From Halobiforma lacisalsi AJ5 (GTDB taxonomy: Archaea; Halobacteriota; Halobacteria; Halobacteriales; Natrialbaceae): 64,000 nt of DNA. Shown one piece after another: positions 16,633 through 33,279 of the stretch (the stretch's first letter is position 1; each line of letters opens with the position of its first letter). The stretch is taken from assembly GCF_000226975.2 (NCBI RefSeq), contig NZ_CP019286.1, positions 62,001-126,000 on the forward strand, written 5' to 3'. The notes below the pieces were generated by a model. That model was not told the origin of the DNA. It worked only from the letters and a program-made list of their open reading frames with translations, and did not search any database. Position numbers and translations under genes: made by a program.

Positions 16633-18163
16633 GTTTCAATCCCACAAGGGTTCGTCTGAAACCGCGTTCACGCCCTGAAGGTCCCGAATCGGGTCTTCGC
16701 TTCAATCCCACAAGGGTTCGTCTGAAACCGAGCAACTGCAACTCGAGTACCGCGACGCCGAGCTTCAATCCCACAAGGGTTCGTCTGAAACTCTGGTCGT
16801 CTTGGCTAATCGGAACGTCGCCCTTCTTGGCTTCAATCCCACAAGGGTTCGTCTGAAACAATTACTCACGAAAACGAGGTTCCAGGGGGCCGAGCTTCAA
16901 TCCCACAAGGGTTCGTCTGAAACGCGGAGGTTCCGCTGGAGTGGACGTCGATCGAGGTACTTCAATCCCACAAGGGTTCGTCTGAAACAGGTCTCGGGGA
17001 GTTCCTCGAGCGGGGCCTCGTCAGGGCTTCAATCCCACAAGGGTTCGTCTGAAACGATCAGGATCCAGCCGCCGTCGCTTCGCGGCTCGCTTCAATCCCA
17101 CAAGGGTTCGTCTGAAACCCTGCTCGGGGGCTCCGGAGTCGTAGAGGTAAAGGTCGCTTCAATCCCACAAGGGTTCGTCTGAAACGCCGTTCTCCATCCG
17201 CCGTGTACGGCGTACTCGAGCTTCAATCCCACAAGGGTTCGTCTGAAACGCGCGCTGTTGGTCGCCCAGTACATCGGCGTCGAACTGCTTCAATCCCACA
17301 AGGGTTCGTCTGAAACTGCTCCGACTCTCCCGGCCCGTCGCCGTCGTCGACGCTTCAATCCCACAAGGGTTCGTCTGAAACGAGCACGCCCCGACGGGTG
17401 CCGGGGGACTTGCGCGCTTCAATCCCACAAGGGTTCGTCTGAAACGCAGGCGTCGAGGGTGGCGAGGCCGTGCGCGGGCTCGCTTCAATCCCACAAGGGT
17501 TCGTCTGAAACACGCGGATCTATCTGCGAGTGTTCATCGTCGTCGATGCTTCAATCCCACAAGGGTTCGTCTGAAACAAAACGTTCAATCCGACTTACCC
17601 CGGCGGAGACGTGCTTCAATCCCACAAGGGTTCGTCTGAAACCGCCCCTGGTGTCGACCGCGCAGTGGGAGAGAACGCTTCAATCCCACAAGGGTTCGTC
17701 TGAAACAACGACAATCTGGCGCATCCAGTACGCTACTTCCGAGCTTCAATCCCACAAGGGTTCGTCTGAAACGTTCATGGAGTCGAACGCGCACTACGAC
17801 CGGCGTGCGCTTCAATCCCACAAGGGTTCGTCTGAAACGCACGGCCAACTGAGCGCACGCATCGTCGAAGAGGGGCTTCAATCCCACAAGGGTTCGTCTG
17901 AAACCCGCCCCCGAAATCAGGACGTGCGCGCCGTCTTCGAGGCTTCAATCCCACAAGGGTTCGTCTGAAACACAGGCACATGAGCACGAGACAAGGATCG
18001 GCGTCGCTTCAATCCCACAAGGGTTCGTCTGAAACAGGCCGTCGCCGTCATCCATCCGACGCACAACGAGCTTCAATCCCACAAGGGTTCGTCTGAAACT
18101 CCCGACGACGAGGAGGTGACCGCCTAATGGCGAGCTTCAATCCCACAAGGGTTCGTCTGAAAC
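16633..18163 (-). CRISPR. CRISPR array 1, type I-B, 24 repeats and 23 spacers
   Basis: Twenty-four 30-bp repeats; read on the minus strand the repeat begins GTTTCAGACGAACCC and ends GGGATTGAAGC, the well-known haloarchaeal type I-B repeat. Spacers are about 33-38 nt. Transcription is inferred on the minus strand because the leader-like region conserved with array 2 lies at the high-coordinate end (18164-18290). The repeat at 16633-16662 (trailer end) has a base change, as does the sixth from that end at its first base. Cas6 would cut to leave the 8-nt 5' handle ATTGAAGC. Confidence 0.98.
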
Positions 18164-18290
18164 CCACCGACATTCTGGTGGACGAGCGAATAATACGGGC
18201 GATTTCACAAAGTCATTTCCATCGACCCTCAATTCCCCTTCTACCCCCAGGGGGTCGATGGAATTTGCATGTACTACAAGCTAATTTCCA
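18164..18290 (-). promoter_or_regulatory. Leader of CRISPR array 1
   Basis: This region shares most of its sequence with 31556-31660 next to array 2. Directly against the last repeat is a hairpin CCACC (18164-18168)/GGTGG (18177-18181). Then come a TATA-like stretch (ATAATACG, 18189-18196) and an inverted repeat with arms ATTTCCATCGACCC (18215-18228) and GGGTCGATGGAATT (18252-18265). It reaches the cas2 stop codon. By family knowledge it holds the array promoter and the site where new spacers are added. Confidence 0.85.
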
Positions 18291-18551
18291 TCAGGTGAAC
18301 CGACTGCCTGGTTCTTGACTCGCACCGAACGTGGTAAAATCAAAAGCAGCAGGGCTCGTTGACTCAAAAACAACCACTGAATCTTCCGGTACTAGTTTCT
18401 CTTCAATTTCATTTTTCATTGATGTGACCTGTCCTTCCGTAAGTTCTCCAAAGAATACCGACTGCTGAACATGCTCCAACCTTCGCCGCAATAATTTTCG
18501 AAAGATATGAGTTCGGTCGCTAGAGACATCATAGACAACTATTACGTGCAT
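18291..18551 (-). CDS. cas2: Cas2 adaptation endonuclease
   Basis: 86 residues from ATG at 18551. The Cas2 ferredoxin fold starts MHVIVVYDVSSDRTHIFRKL (catalytic-type Asp ~8) followed by LEHVQQSVFFGELT, the strand that makes the Cas1 contact. It dimerises and bridges Cas1 dimers during spacer acquisition. It is the last cas gene, 1 nt after the cas1 stop, and its stop touches leader 1. An in-frame start 36 nt upstream lies inside cas1 and lacks conserved sequence. Confidence 0.95.
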   Translation of the reverse strand: MHVIVVYDVSSDRTHIFRKLLRRRLEHVQQSVFFGELTEGQVTSMKNEIEEKLVPEDSVVVFESTSPAAFDFTTFGASQEPGSRFT

Positions 18552-18552
18552 T

Positions 18553-19548
18553 TCACCACCACCGTTCAGTTGCGTGGTAAGGTTCATCCGTTAATACATG
18601 CTTTTTCAGACTGTAAACATCAGTCTGGACCAGCGTTTTGAAACTTACCTTTCTATTCAAACGAGGGTGATCAATAGTCTTATCAAGAGTTTCCTCAAAC
18701 TCTTCAAGGACGGTCATTCGTCCCTTTTCATCTAACAGACAGCCCTCGAGTTCTTCTTCAAAGTCATCAATAGACAATTGTTTTCGATTGACTAACCGGA
18801 ATAGTAGCCGATCAGCTAGAATCGGCTTGAATATGTCTGCAATGTCGAGGGAGAGTGTGAATCGGCGTTCTCCAGGTTCATGAACAAAACCCACCGTCGG
18901 ATCGAGCGCTGTCTTCCGAATGGCCGAAACACTGGTAGTATATACCATTCCATTCAGGAACGATATTACTGCATTTGCTTCATTTGTAGGAGGATTATAT
19001 TTTCGCTGAGTTAGCGTAAATGGGCTACGAAGAATCCGGTCAAAACATCCGTAGTAGGTCTTTCGGGCACGTCCTTCGACCGAACGAAGTTCGTTAATAT
19101 CTGTTGTCCCAGCAGCAGAATTTTTCAATTCCTCGAGATCCTCAAGTTCAGTTGAGAAATTGCCTTGTCGGTCATTGTAATATCGGAGATTCGCTCGCAT
19201 ATTGTGGATACTAGCTTCGATAATGGTCTGACCGATCTGAAGTCGCCGGTCTAGATTATCATATGCTCGAACTTGTTCAACGACGGTATTCCCCGACACC
19301 TGTCCTCGTTTCGGGAGGTAGGAACCACGATAGTAGTCTTTCCATCCAAATATGTGTAGAGGTACGTTGTGCTCATTCAACAGACCAAGTGCACGCGTAT
19401 TGAAATCGATCTGTCCGTGCAAATACAATGTATCAATGGATTCAATGGGGAGGTATTCTGTCTCCCCGTCTAATGTATCGATCCGTAGTGTCCCTTCATT
19501 CCGCGATAACTCTCCATCAGCGAAAATATGGTGATTTGGTTTTGTCAT
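18553..19548 (-). CDS. cas1: Cas1 integrase
   Basis: 331 residues from the ATG at 19548, 2 nt after the cas4 stop. The beta-rich N-terminal domain (HHIFADGELSRNEGTLRI...YLPIESIDTLYLHG) leads to the helical domain with NEANAVISFLNGMVYTTS (catalytic Glu), GFVHEPGERRFTLSLDIADIF (catalytic His and the Asp/Glu pair) and a C-terminal RLNRKVSFKTLVQTDV. It joins protospacers to the leader-proximal repeat. Adaptation appears intact, since cas1, cas2 and cas4 are all full-length. Confidence 0.96.
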   Translation of the reverse strand: MTKPNHHIFADGELSRNEGTLRIDTLDGETEYLPIESIDTLYLHGQIDFNTRALGLLNEHNVPLHIFGWKDYYRGSYLPKRGQVSGNTVVEQVRAYDNLDRRLQIGQTIIEASIHNMRANLRYYNDRQGNFSTELEDLEELKNSAAGTTDINELRSVEGRARKTYYGCFDRILRSPFTLTQRKYNPPTNEANAVISFLNGMVYTTSVSAIRKTALDPTVGFVHEPGERRFTLSLDIADIFKPILADRLLFRLVNRKQLSIDDFEEELEGCLLDEKGRMTVLEEFEETLDKTIDHPRLNRKVSFKTLVQTDVYSLKKHVLTDEPYHATERWW

Positions 19549-27984: not shown

Positions 27985-30900
27985 ATTTCAATCCCACAAG
28001 GGTTCGTCTGAAACCTATTCTCGAGGTGGCGCTGATACCGGCGACCGCGAGGCTTCAATCCCACAAGGGTTCGTCTGAAACAGCGGCCGTTCGACCTTGT
28101 CCCCGAGGAAGAACTCGCTTCAATCCCACAAGGGTTCGTCTGAAACGGTCCCTGACCAGGTGGTGATGTGGACCGGCCACTCGCTTCAATCCCACAAGGG
28201 TTCGTCTGAAACTCTTGGCGTTGCACTCCGACTCGTCGTGCACGAACATGCTTCAATCCCACAAGGGTTCGTCTGAAACGACGTACAGCCGGTAGACCTC
28301 CTGTGGCCACTCGCCGCTTCAATCCCACAAGGGTTCGTCTGAAACCGACGAGGTCTTTGTCGATCGCCCGCTCGAGGCTGCTTCAATCCCACAAGGGTTC
28401 GTCTGAAACCTATACGTTTCCTCTATAGAATAGCCTTCATAGACGCTTCAATCCCACAAGGGTTCGTCTGAAACTCTTGGCGTTGCACTCCGACTCGTCG
28501 TGCACGAACATGCTTCAATCCCACAAGGGTTCGTCTGAAACCGCACTCGAGGCAGCCGGCCTGGACCCGAATCACGAGCTTCAATCCCACAAGGGTTCGT
28601 CTGAAACATGATGCCGACAAGCGTGTCCTCCGGTTCGTCGCCGCTTCAATCCCACAAGGGTTCGTCTGAAACGAGCCCCGTTCGATGGTCCGTCCTTCGA
28701 AACCGGAGCTTCAATCCCACAAGGGTTCGTCTGAAACCTTGATCGTTCCTTCGTCAACGTCTTCGCTCAGGTTGCTTCAATCCCACAAGGGTTCGTCTGA
28801 AACCGACCACGGCCTCGTGGAGCAGGTCGATCGAGGCAAGCTTCAATCCCACAAGGGTTCGTCTGAAACCGTGTCGATATCGTCGATGTTCTCGTCGCTC
28901 ATGCGCTTCAATCCCACAAGGGTTCGTCTGAAACTCGGATGTTGGTTATAACATCATCAGCGGGAATTGCTTCAATCCCACAAGGGTTCGTCTGAAACAC
29001 TCACCTTCGTCCCTCTAAGGAATTGATCGAACGTGCTTCAATCCCACAAGGGTTCGTCTGAAACAAGTCACGTCTGACGGCGTCACGGCGACCACCCCGC
29101 GCTTCAATCCCACAAGGGTTCGTCTGAAACACCCGTGCGGTCGCTCGCGTACGTCTTACTGACGTTGCTTCAATCCCACAAGGGTTCGTCTGAAACCGAT
29201 AGAGCCCCGAATCCTCGTAGCCAGTTTCGCTCAGCTTCAATCCCACAAGGGTTCGTCTGAAACCCGACGACTATCACTCGAGTCGATCGGTTCGGTTGCG
29301 CTTCAATCCCACAAGGGTTCGTCTGAAACGACCTCGCGACCGACGTCGACGACGTCAGGTTGCTTCAATCCCACAAGGGTTCGTCTGAAATGCCTTCGTC
29401 GACGGTGACCGAGAGGTCGTCCTTCGCTTCAATCCCACAAGGGTTCGTCTGAAACTCGTGCGTGGTTGATCGGTTAGCTATCCGTCTGCGTGCTTCAATC
29501 CCACAAGGGTTCGTCTGAAACGACGGGACTGAACACCTCGTCACGCAGGTCGGCAGCGAGCTTCAATCCCACAAGGGTTCGTCTGAAACACCACACTCGC
29601 ATTTGACGATGCAATCCGAGTAGTGGCTTCAATCCCACAAGGGTTCGTCTGAAACCGACGACGACCTCGTTGAGAAGGTCGACCGCGGGCTGCTTCAATC
29701 CCACAAGGGTTCGTCTGAAACTCGAGTGCCTTCGGAAACGTCCCCTAGCCGCGCCTGTGCTTCAATCCCACAAGGGTTCGTCTGAAACCACTCTCGTACA
29801 CGCCCCAGTCGCCAGCCTTCGGTGCGCTTCAATCCCACAAGGGTTCGTCTGAAACCGTCCGGTTCGTCCGTGGGACTACCGTTAAGTCCGCTTCAATCCC
29901 ACAAGGGTTCGTCTGAAACCGCGACGAGGGCGGCACCGGCGGCCTCGAGCTCAAGCTTCAATCCCACAAGGGTTCGTCTGAAACGGTGGTCAGAGTGGAC
30001 CCCCAATCCCGCGCGGGTCAGAGCTTCAATCCCACAAGGGTTCGTCTGAAACTCTCCAGCAGCGCCTCGAGCAAGCCGACGTCCCGCTTCAATCCCACAA
30101 GGGTTCGTCTGAAACGACGTCTACCAGCGGTTCACCGACGAGTGGGGGCAGCTTCAATCCCACAAGGGTTCGTCTGAAACGTCGTTTCATACACGAGGGT
30201 CCTACCCGAACGGCCGCTTCAATCCCACAAGGGTTCGTCTGAAACCGCTTCCCTCGACTTCGCGGTCGACTCGCACGGCAGGCTTCAATCCCACAAGGGT
30301 TCGTCTGAAACCATCACGCGGCCCCACATCTCGCACTGGTACGGTTCGCTTCAATCCCACAAGGGTTCGTCTGAAACGAGGAAAAGCAGTGTACTCGCGA
30401 GGTCCGTGACGCCGCTTCAATCCCACAAGGGTTCGTCTGAAACCTGCGTTCCGGAGGGAGAGCGGCAGGCAGACCCAGCTTCAATCCCACAAGGGTTCGT
30501 CTGAAACCATCGCGACGACCCGATGGTCAGTCCCTCGGAGTCCGCTTCAATCCCACAAGGGTTCGTCTGAAACTCTCATAGACTCGCCACGAGACGCCCT
30601 CACGGTTCTCGCTTCAATCCCACAAGGGTTCGTCTGAAACGGACCTTCGCCTCGTTGCATCGCCGGCACTGATCCAGCTTCAATCCCACAAGGGTTCGTC
30701 TGAAACACTGATTAGTAGTCGCTAACCGACGTTTCTATTTCGCTTCAATCCCACAAGGGTTCGTCTGAAACTGGAGGGTTTCACCGGAAAGGCGGCGTAC
30801 ACCGAGCTTCAATCCCACAAGGGTTCGTCTGAAACCCGCGCGCTTGTGCACGAGGTTACGAGGTGATTGAGCTTCAATCCCACAAGGGTTCGTCTGAAAC

Positions 30901-31555
30901 GCTGACTGGGCTGGGCTTAATCGCTTCGACACTGACAGCTTCAATCCCACAAGGGTTCGTCTGAAACCCCGTTCGTTAGGGCCGTCTCACCAAGGCAAGA
31001 GTAGCTTCAATCCCACAAGGGTTCGTCTGAAACGTTTCCACCTGCGGACGTAGAGACGGCCGTAACGGTGCTTCAATCCCACAAGGGTTCGTCTGAAACG
31101 ATAGTATGATAGTGTGTTAGGGGAGTTCTTTGAGCTTCAATCCCACAAGGGTTCGTCTGAAACTCCGCGACCAACTCGAGCGTTCCCGGCTCGAGATCGC
31201 TTCAATCCCACAAGGGTTCGTCTGAAACGGATCTCCCGACCGCCGTCGCGCAACTCCTCGAGCGAGCTTCAATCCCACAAGGGTTCGTCTGAAACCCAAC
31301 GACGGTAACACGGTCGATTTCCGCGGCGCGTGCTTCAATCCCACAAGGGTTCGTCTGAAACACGACGAGCTCACCGAGGAACTCCTGCTCGAAGCCGCTT
31401 CAATCCCACAAGGGTTCGTCTGAAACGGTGACTGCCCCACCCCACCCTGCCCCTTTTAGGTGCTTCAATCCCACAAGGGTTCGTCTGAAACCGTGCTCGC
31501 CGTCGGCCTCGAAGCGCTCGTACCAGCTTCAATCCCACAAGGGTTCGTCTGAAAC
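27985..31555 (-). CRISPR. CRISPR array 2, type I-B, 55 repeats and 54 spacers
   Basis: Fifty-five 30-bp repeats, identical to array 1 in consensus and orientation. Leader side is the high-coordinate end, so transcription runs toward cas6. The trailer repeat at 27985-28014 differs in its first two bases, and the repeat at 29362-29391 ends GAAAT on the plus strand. Spacers are about 33-38 nt. The spacer at 28213-28249 is repeated exactly at 28475-28511. Spacers at 28804-28839 and 29656-29691 are related variants. None of the short open frames that cross the repeats is a real gene. Confidence 0.98.
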
Positions 31556-31660
31556 CCGCCAACATTCCGGCGGATAAGCGGATAATACGGGCGGTCTCAC
31601 AAAGTCATTTCCATCGACCCTCAATTCCCCTTCTACCCCCGAGGGGTCGATGGAAATTCG
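31556..31660 (-). promoter_or_regulatory. Leader of CRISPR array 2
   Basis: It matches leader 1 closely. A hairpin CCGCC (31556-31560)/GGCGG (31569-31573) abuts the first repeat, followed by ATAATACGGGCGG, CTCACAAAGTC and a perfect inverted repeat with 14-nt arms at 31607-31620 and 31644-31657 around a pyrimidine-rich loop. On the minus strand a TATA-like box lies about 25-30 nt upstream of the first repeat. It runs right up to a decayed IS1595 gene, so its outer boundary may have been cut. Confidence 0.85.
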
Positions 31661-31661
31661 C

Positions 31662-32113
31662 TCATCCCGATGACTCGTAACTCAGGATTTTGCTGAACCA
31701 GTCGGTGTCATCGTTCAGCAAGAGGCCGAGAAAGTTGAGATAGCCCTGAAGATGATGCTTCGAGACACCTCTGAACTTCGCCAGCCACTGGCGAAGGAAG
31801 CTATGGCGGGTCTCGCCGCGATCTGTGTCGTCGGCACAGATCGCATCTCCTTGATCATGTAGAACATCTCCTCGATGGGGAACTTCCGATGCTCGAAGAC
31901 CGAATTCGTGAGGTCGTTGAAATATGTCTCACACCCCTTGCAACGGTACTGTTGAGCGCCTTTCCCCGTCGTCCCCTTCTTGATGACTGGGTTGCTCTCC
32001 CCGCAGTAGACACACGACACCGTCGCGCCGAATCGGGCGCGACGGAGTCGCTCGTAGCAGTCGTCCGGATTGGGAAGGAACACTTCTACCGAGTCCCTGT
32101 CCATCAACAGCAA
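31662..32113 (-). pseudogene. IS1595-family transposase with an internal deletion
   Basis: The N-terminal part (start about 32104, MDRDSVEVFLPNPDDCYERL) has the zinc ribbon CVYCGES...CKGCETYF and YMIKEMRSVPTTQIA. It then jumps, in another frame, to the C-terminal end GETRHSFLRQWLAKFRGVSK...LSYESSG with its stop at 31662. The whole DDE core is missing. The element is dead and lies between leader 2 and an ISH3 remnant. Confidence 0.72.
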
Positions 32114-32128
32114 CCAACGAACTCCTCG

Positions 32129-33279
32129 CTACTGGAAGTTACGACTGGTCGGGATGAGCGGATCGCGGTTTAACTCCCGGACGACCCCGTGGAGAAACGC
32201 ATCTCCGAACGTGAACTCAACGGGGAGTGCTCGCCCGCCACGGCGTGGCCGGGCGAGCACGGCCACTGTAAGACCAGCCACAACTGCTCTAACAAGAAGC
32301 CGACCCCCACGTAGAAGAGACGAATCGTCGTTGACGGTGTTGTCGTCACTGCACGCGCCTCACGGAACTTCTCGTAGCTCTTTTCGATCCGTGATCGCTT
32401 GTTGTAGATCGTCGCAACCTGCGCCGGCGTCCGGTCTTTCAGACCGTACGCCGCGTATCCGGTCGCCTTCACGCCAGACTTTCCACGGTCACCGTTCTGG
32501 TAGGTAACGTTCACTGCCATCGGAAACGTCTGTTCGTGCTCTTTCCCCTCACAAATCGTCTCCTCGGTCATGTATGACGCTGTTACGGAGAGCTTCTTTC
32601 GGATCGACGCCTTCCCGGTCTTGACCGGGAAGACTGGCGGTGCACTCTCCCGAAGGACGCCAATCAGCTTCCCAACGTAGGCGTCTCGATCCATGAGAAT
32701 GCGGTCGATCTCGAATGGATACGTCTCGACGCGGGCGAGCAGGCGCTCGACCGCGTCGGCCTTGCTATCTTCGCCAGCAACCGGTTCAACCGCGAGTGTC
32801 AGCGGCTTTCCCTGCGCAATCACGAACGCTGTGCAGTAACGATGACACTGGGTAGTCCCGTCCCGAGCAGCCATCCGTCTGGTCTCGCCGTCACTGCTGG
32901 GAGTTCCGTGGAACGGGTTGTCCATGAAGTCGATGCAGACGGTTCTCGACCTGTGGCGGTCGAGAACCGTCATCGCCAGCGTAGCGAGAATATCGTTGAC
33001 GGAGTCTAGCATCGGGTCTTTCTGGATCGTGTGGAGCCAATCCATGACGGGCTCTCTATTGGGCGTTTCCTCTGTGTTGGTCGTGACGCCGTTGACAGAG
33101 GTTGTCCCAGCAGCGGCTCGAAGAACGACTTCCATGATATCGCCGGGATCGAGGGGCGAACCCTCGATCCCCGGCATCGGAATCAACAGGAGCAGCTCCA
33201 GAGAAAGAGCCTTGAGTTGCCGGTTCGAAATGAACTCGTCTGGATCAGTAAGTACCTGCTTGAGTTTTGGAATGTTCAT
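32129..33279 (-). pseudogene. ISH3-family transposase, frameshifted near its 3' end
   Basis: From the ATG at 33279 the frame encodes an ISH3-type DDE transposase (CIDFMDNPFHG, RILMDRDAYVG, NKRSRIEKSYEKFREA) as far as LEQLWLVLQW. A missing base near 32262, in a run of G on the coding strand, shifts the frame. The original C-terminus AVLARPRRGGRALPVEF...PTSRNFQ can be read in the next phase to a stop at 32129. The 3' terminal repeat is not seen, and the element abuts the IS1595 fragment. It is probably inactive. Confidence 0.8.

Follow-up and report, generated by a model that had tools for sequence, protein, structure and literature searches.

A covarying hairpin before the first repeat of haloarchaeal type I-B CRISPR leaders and its possible role at the 5' end of the pre-crRNA

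In a type I-B CRISPR-Cas locus of Halobiforma lacisalsi AJ5, both leaders end in a short inverted repeat that touches the first repeat of the array. This raises the question of whether the element is a structure kept by selection and, if so, whether it acts as DNA, during spacer integration, or as RNA, at the start of the array transcript. The window, which is the whole stretch of DNA analysed, comprises 64,000 nucleotides (contig NZ_CP019286.1, positions 62,001 to 126,000), and the positions given below refer to it.

The locus and the hairpins of its two leaders

The haloarchaeal locus within the window consists of array 1 (16633-18163, minus strand), the cas genes and then array 2 (27985-31555, minus strand). 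A degenerate terminal repeat marks the leader-distal end of array 1 at 16633, and another is found in array 2 at 27985. Both arrays use one common repeat, GTTTCAGACGAACCCTTGTGGGATTGAAGC (Rfam RF01337), with identical leader-side copies at 18134-18163 and 31526-31555 (minus strand), and both are read leftwards, so that their leaders lie on their right. Between the arrays, cas6-cas8b-cas7-cas5-cas3-cas4-cas1 run on the minus strand from cas6 (27872) to cas1 (18553), as detected by matches to the NCBIfam profiles TIGR01877, TIGR02591, TIGR02590, TIGR02592, TIGR01596, TIGR00372 and TIGR03641, all scoring over the cut-off except for the Cas3 helicase core, which was at the cut-off. A 98-aa ORF (18291-18587, minus strand) is a putative cas2 by its position. 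Cas1 falls into TIGR03641, which is type I-B, and cas8b/Csh1, cas7/Csh2, cas5b, cas3, cas6, cas4 and cas1b were all found together with the arrays, as in type I-B systems.

Within array 2, the spacer TCTTGGCGTTGCACTCCGACTCGTCGTGCACGAACAT is present twice (28183-28279 and 28445-28541), and similar spacers are also carried by the units that begin at 28774 and 29626 (90% identity across the 99-nt unit, including repeats). An IS region (31715-33279) starts around 60 bp past the distal inverted repeat of leader 2 and contains an IS1/IS1595-type zinc-finger ORF fragment (31715-32113) and an ISH3-family transposase gene (32170-33279).

The inverted repeats described in the initial annotation were found with the same letters and positions, CCACC-GACATTCT-GGTGG at 18164-18181 and CCGCC-AACATTCC-GGCGG at 31556-31573 on the plus strand. 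In leader sense (minus strand), they read CCACC AGAATGTC GGTGG and CCGCC GGAATGTT GGCGG, with RNA fold energies of -7.0 and -9.1 kcal/mol, the latter for a hairpin of 7 bp in which two G.U pairs are included. Both are flush with the GTTTCAG of the leader-side repeat, and the middle stem pair changes from A-T to G-C between the leaders with pairing kept, which had been read as a sign of a needed structure.

Taken alone, the two window leaders are weak and merely suggestive evidence for covariation. Within the hairpin, 4 of 18 positions differ between them, compared to 5 of 44 upstream, and therefore the hairpin is the faster-changing part of these leaders, with one compensatory pair among the differences. 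When four random transitions were introduced, the 5-bp stem was still fully paired in 7.1% of the trials and a compensatory change appeared in 4.8%. Among the 8 leaders that share the exact register of the window, 92.5% of the cells were paired, and covariation within this small set was not significant (63 of 500 shuffles were equally good).

Pairing before the first repeat across Halobacteria

When the 99-nt window leader was used as a query, matches were obtained in 47 of 391 genomes of the class, mostly through the distal inverted repeat TTTCCATCGACCCCC...GGGTCGATGGAAA. Leaders were then anchored on a short piece of this distal element and on 10 nt of the repeat, with any 42-58 nt between them, and the hairpin region played no part in their selection. 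Named genomes, four families and model species from plasmid records yielded a set of 176 different type I-B leaders of Halobacteria, with 116 remaining below 80% identity (nr80), 80 below 70% (nr70) and 37 below 60% (nr60). A scan of the relatives' loci for leaders without the distal motif left five, none of them a clean independent leader. One array (L146) has the standard repeat with no recognisable distal leader element adjoining its first copy, and is possibly truncated or leaderless.

The distal element itself is a perfect 12-bp inverted repeat, TTCCATCGACCC / GGGTCGATGGAA, with arms 23 nt apart, and its sequence is conserved across Halobacteria. It is located 62-64 nt from the repeat, a nearly constant distance that the search patterns held roughly to that range. 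In leader 1 it spans 18217-18263 (arms 18217-18228 and 18252-18263) and in leader 2 31609-31655 (arms 31609-31620 and 31644-31655), without assigned strand. Its inner arm overlaps the predicted BRE described below.

Fixed-register column covariation over all leaders gave a weak signal, since the stem slides by 1-4 nt, and a register-free test was used instead, in which the final 22 nt were split and their 5' halves swapped between leaders, so that each half kept its composition and conservation. Of the 116 nr80 leaders, 47% had a stem of at least 5 Watson-Crick bp before repeat 1, compared to 17% after swapping (z 10.2), and the share was 51% versus 15% in the 37 nr60 leaders, which are less than 60% identical (z 6.8). 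The excess held over redundancy levels of 60-90% (z 6.8-11.2) and also when swapping was restricted to the 8 nearest leaders (z 6.2). With wobbles counted, stems of at least 4 bp were present in 106 of the 116 leaders versus 75.8±4.2 under the null, the remaining 10 having no 4-bp stem; raising the threshold to 5 bp left 86 versus 40.6±4.2. No stem excess was obtained in the same leader set with mirror, A-G/C-T or A-C/G-T control alphabets, and in the other 20-nt stretches of the leader, dyads stayed near shuffled values, none in excess.

The arms themselves are diverse, with 35 distinct 5' arms among 55 stems, the 3' arm being the more fixed side. The register varies (3' end mostly at -5 to -1), as does the loop (3-10 nt), and nearly every leader has its own short dyad, such as GCCCAGAATTGGGC-ATG, GCCGGATATCCGGC-ATG and GCTCAAGAATAGAGC-ATG in relatives or GCCCG-TATAT-CGGGC-ATG in H. 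hispanica. Two leaders beside one cas operon in H. alexandrinus carry different arms (CCCG/CGGG versus TGTCC/GGACA), and in the window, as at L291, L293 and L294, the two leaders of a single cell likewise have unlike half-sites. As pairing is maintained in spite of variation in arm sequence, in loop length and in register, the pre-repeat hairpin of haloarchaeal I-B leaders is a real, old and selected structure. The observation extends from two leaders to a class and supports the reading as a needed structure: relatives do keep a short stem with paired changes, and in the alignment of haloarchaeal leaders proposed along with the annotation, the class-wide set is the only one in which such changes greatly exceed chance.

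The end of the leader is also conserved in sequence (G at -6, 0.88; A at -3, 0.85; G at -1, 0.90). ATG makes up the last three bases in 81 of the 116 leaders, and the window leaders end in GG. These last bases (ATG) likely also have a DNA role in integration. Leaders ending in ATG are in frame with the repeat and form a mini-ORF, for example ATG GTT TCA GAC GAA CCC TTG TGG GGT TGA (MVSDEPLWG) at 8412-8444 of L290. This mini-ORF, which does not occur in the window, is probably a by-product of a DNA motif. Leaders are near-identical between the two active loci of H. volcanii, whereas that of the inactive locus C is different (PMC7521656).

Strand asymmetry and the predicted transcription start

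Single mismatches within the stems were G.T or A.C in a ratio of 17:4 at nr80 (p 0.008), compared to a G.T share of around 53% expected from swapped leaders. The ratio was 32:4 at nr98 (p 1e-5) and 10:2 at nr70 (p 0.02), the test getting weaker as redundancy is removed. The region from -22 to -1 folded at -7.69 kcal/mol as sense RNA and at -6.86 kcal/mol as antisense, with -4.94 and -4.72 kcal/mol for swapped leaders, and the difference between sense and antisense corresponded to a z of -4.7 at nr80 and -2.5 at nr60. As double-stranded DNA would show neither the G.T preference nor the advantage of the sense fold, RNA is favoured; a single-stranded DNA hairpin of the sense strand would give the same bias in mismatches and fold energy.

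The position of the element relative to the transcript was analysed with a promoter model built from 129 annotated haloarchaeal gene starts, which recovers the BRE (-37 to -33), the TATA box (-30 to -26) and the -10 WW element. Across 110 leaders, the model peaked for a start at -20 (2.87 versus 0.14 for the next offset), with offsets from -3 to 0 scoring below -3.6, and bootstraps placed the start between -23 and -18 in 52-60 of 60 cases (nr80). GG-ending leaders analysed separately also peaked at -20. A first model based on unannotated ORF starts had given no usable signal and was discarded, and a second one, from 48 annotated starts, peaked at -20/-21, was unstable in bootstraps and was replaced by the 129-start model. 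Start sites are described for the three CRISPR loci of H. volcanii (PMC4983044).

The class-average start at -20 lies at the foot of the hairpin and corresponds to predicted starts at 18183 for array 1 and 31575 for array 2 (minus strand). For this start, the trained columns identify a BRE-like GGAAA (-57 to -53) and a TATA-like ACTTT (-50 to -46) in leader 1 (18209-18220, minus strand), and BRE-like and TATA-like elements in leader 2 (31601-31612, minus strand). The TATA-like box noted in the initial annotation is present as TATTAT (ATAATA on the plus strand) at 18190-18195 and 31582-31587 (minus strand), and could be either an alternative TATA box for a start around -1 or, with the start at -20, its -10 WW element. 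In the closest relatives found, CATTGTT stands in place of the TATTAT of the window leaders. Scored alone, both window leaders give slightly higher values for a start at -1 (2.7 and 4.2) than for -20 (1.5 and 2.3); a start predicted at -1, if used in this organism, would leave the hairpin upstream of the transcript.

From a TATA-like box 25 nt away, the initial annotation had placed the transcription start in or close to the element and had supposed that it may therefore act as DNA rather than as RNA. For the class, this supposition did not hold up against a class start at around -20, upstream of the hairpin, the excess of G.T over A.C mismatches and the more stable sense fold; the DNA anchor is the weaker of the two readings and an RNA stem-loop is favoured. 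A second, DNA-level role of the hairpin at the integration site is possible, since the window leaders score slightly higher for a start at -1 and sequence conservation is seen in the final leader bases (ATG or GG).

A possible 5' stem-loop, its alternatives and known systems

Pairing of the leader with the first repeat over at least 3 bp was detected in 21 of 116 minimum-energy folds versus 54.4±5.0 after swapping, a measure that is tied to the hairpin test because swapping itself breaks hairpins. As pairing between leader and first repeat is thus infrequent, the hairpin may act as an insulator, and from this insulation comes the proposal that it leaves repeat 1 accessible to Cas6 and protects the 5' end. 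We consider it moderately probable that the element would be the 5'-terminal stem-loop of haloarchaeal type I-B pre-crRNA, leaving repeat 1 free for Cas6. Transcription would start around 20 nt before the first repeat, and the first bases of the transcript would fold into a hairpin of 4-7 bp ending 0-4 nt ahead of repeat 1. Leader RNA tied up in this hairpin would not pair with repeat 1, which, left free, could fold and be cut by Cas6 with release of the crRNA of the newest spacer, while the hairpin would probably also protect the long precursor at its 5' end. That the 3' arm and the final bases of the leader are partly fixed in sequence would probably be due to their being read as DNA by the integrase, and the 5' arm would change so as to stay paired with them.

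The alternative that survives best, unlikely as it appears, is a DNA dyad at the leader-repeat junction that, extruded or read as an inverted repeat, anchors or bends the DNA for integration by Cas1-Cas2(-Cas4). The dyad abuts the integration site, the final bases of the leader are conserved, the distal inverted repeat keeps its distance to the repeat within the range roughly imposed by the search patterns, and a start at -1 is possible for the leaders of the window. Moreover, the leader end and the inverted repeats inside the repeat are cited as mattering for adaptation in the I-B system of H. hispanica (Wang 2016, as cited in PMC5382924), and type I-F leaders bear inverted repeats contacted by the integrase (PMC12259127). 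A conserved leader-end sequence was indeed found, whereas arms that are both fixed, at a fixed spacing and with no strand preference, were not: register and loop are variable (3' end at -5 to -1, loop of 3-10 nt), the arms differ beside one cas operon in H. alexandrinus, unlike a sequence-read site, and the strand asymmetry in mismatches and fold energy and the class-wide start predicted at -20 point away from DNA.

A still less probable reading concerns the leader piece cut off by Cas6, which, with its repeat 3' tag, would stay folded and thus could not load into Cascade as a false guide. Type I crRNAs carry an 8-nt 5' handle, and a type I leader piece has none, so poor loading would be expected anyway. 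With the predicted start, the hairpin is nearly the whole transcribed leader, as this block on extraneous RNA would have it, and analogous hairpins occur in the type II-C extraneous guide (PMC12080349) and as leader-repeat hairpins in type VI-B (PMC13187072). An operator, where a dimeric regulator of array transcription binds a dyad at the start site, seems very improbable: the element is dyad-symmetric and located over or just past the predicted start, but two leaders in a single cell have different half-sites, the spacing is inconstant, and G.T and A.C mismatches should be equally common instead of 17:4. That the element has no function, its inverted repeats being perfected by template-switch mutation, which creates paired changes in a single step, is scarcely credible, as stems are kept among leaders less than 60% identical and only in the last 22 nt, the wobble bias is not expected from mutation alone and other leader windows have no dyad excess.

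If the 5' stem-loop reading is right, the leaders of widely used genetic models (Haloferax, Haloarcula) would carry a testable RNA element, and leader mutations interpreted as integration defects may also have hit crRNA maturation. Cas9 and Cas13 systems are known to have leader RNA structures that direct crRNA output; no report of such structures in type I systems or archaea was found in the open-access literature searched.

Among known DNA elements, the leader inverted repeats of type I-F, bound by Cas1-2/3 (PMC12259127), also keep a fixed distance to the repeat, and it is the distal TTCCATCGACCC...GGGTCGATGGAA that resembles them; their arms are sequence motifs read as DNA with IHF, whereas those of the haloarchaeal repeat-proximal hairpin are variable. 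The leader-anchoring sequence ATTTGAG of type II-A (Wei 2015, as cited in PMC5382924) touches the leader-repeat junction as well, but is described there as a fixed sequence, in contrast to a covarying stem. Among RNA elements, the extraneous crRNA guide of type II-C (PMC12080349) has a self-contained hairpin directly upstream of an extra repeat, in a system that differs in having promoters in the repeats, an array that grows at the other end and no Cas6.

The closest parallels are found in type VI-B (PMC13187072) and in type II-A, where a leader RNA hairpin is described as influencing how the newest crRNA matures (Liao 2022, as cited in PMC12080349 and PMC13187072). As described in these sources, both have a transcribed leader structure beside the first repeat that is kept in relatives, but their leader base-pairs with the repeat, which is thereby hidden, whereas the haloarchaeal leader pairs with itself; disruption of the first repeat by the leader was not the pattern in the folds of the 116 leaders (21 versus 54.4±5.0), where the stem is leader-internal. 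Type and domain also differ, the haloarchaeal case being I-B, with Cas6, in archaea. More tentatively, haloarchaeal I-B pre-crRNAs might begin with a conserved, fast-changing stem-loop with pairing kept that isolates repeat 1 and raises the crRNA of the newest spacer, a Cas6-dependent archaeal counterpart, with opposite geometry, of the leader-RNA prioritisation of Cas9 systems.
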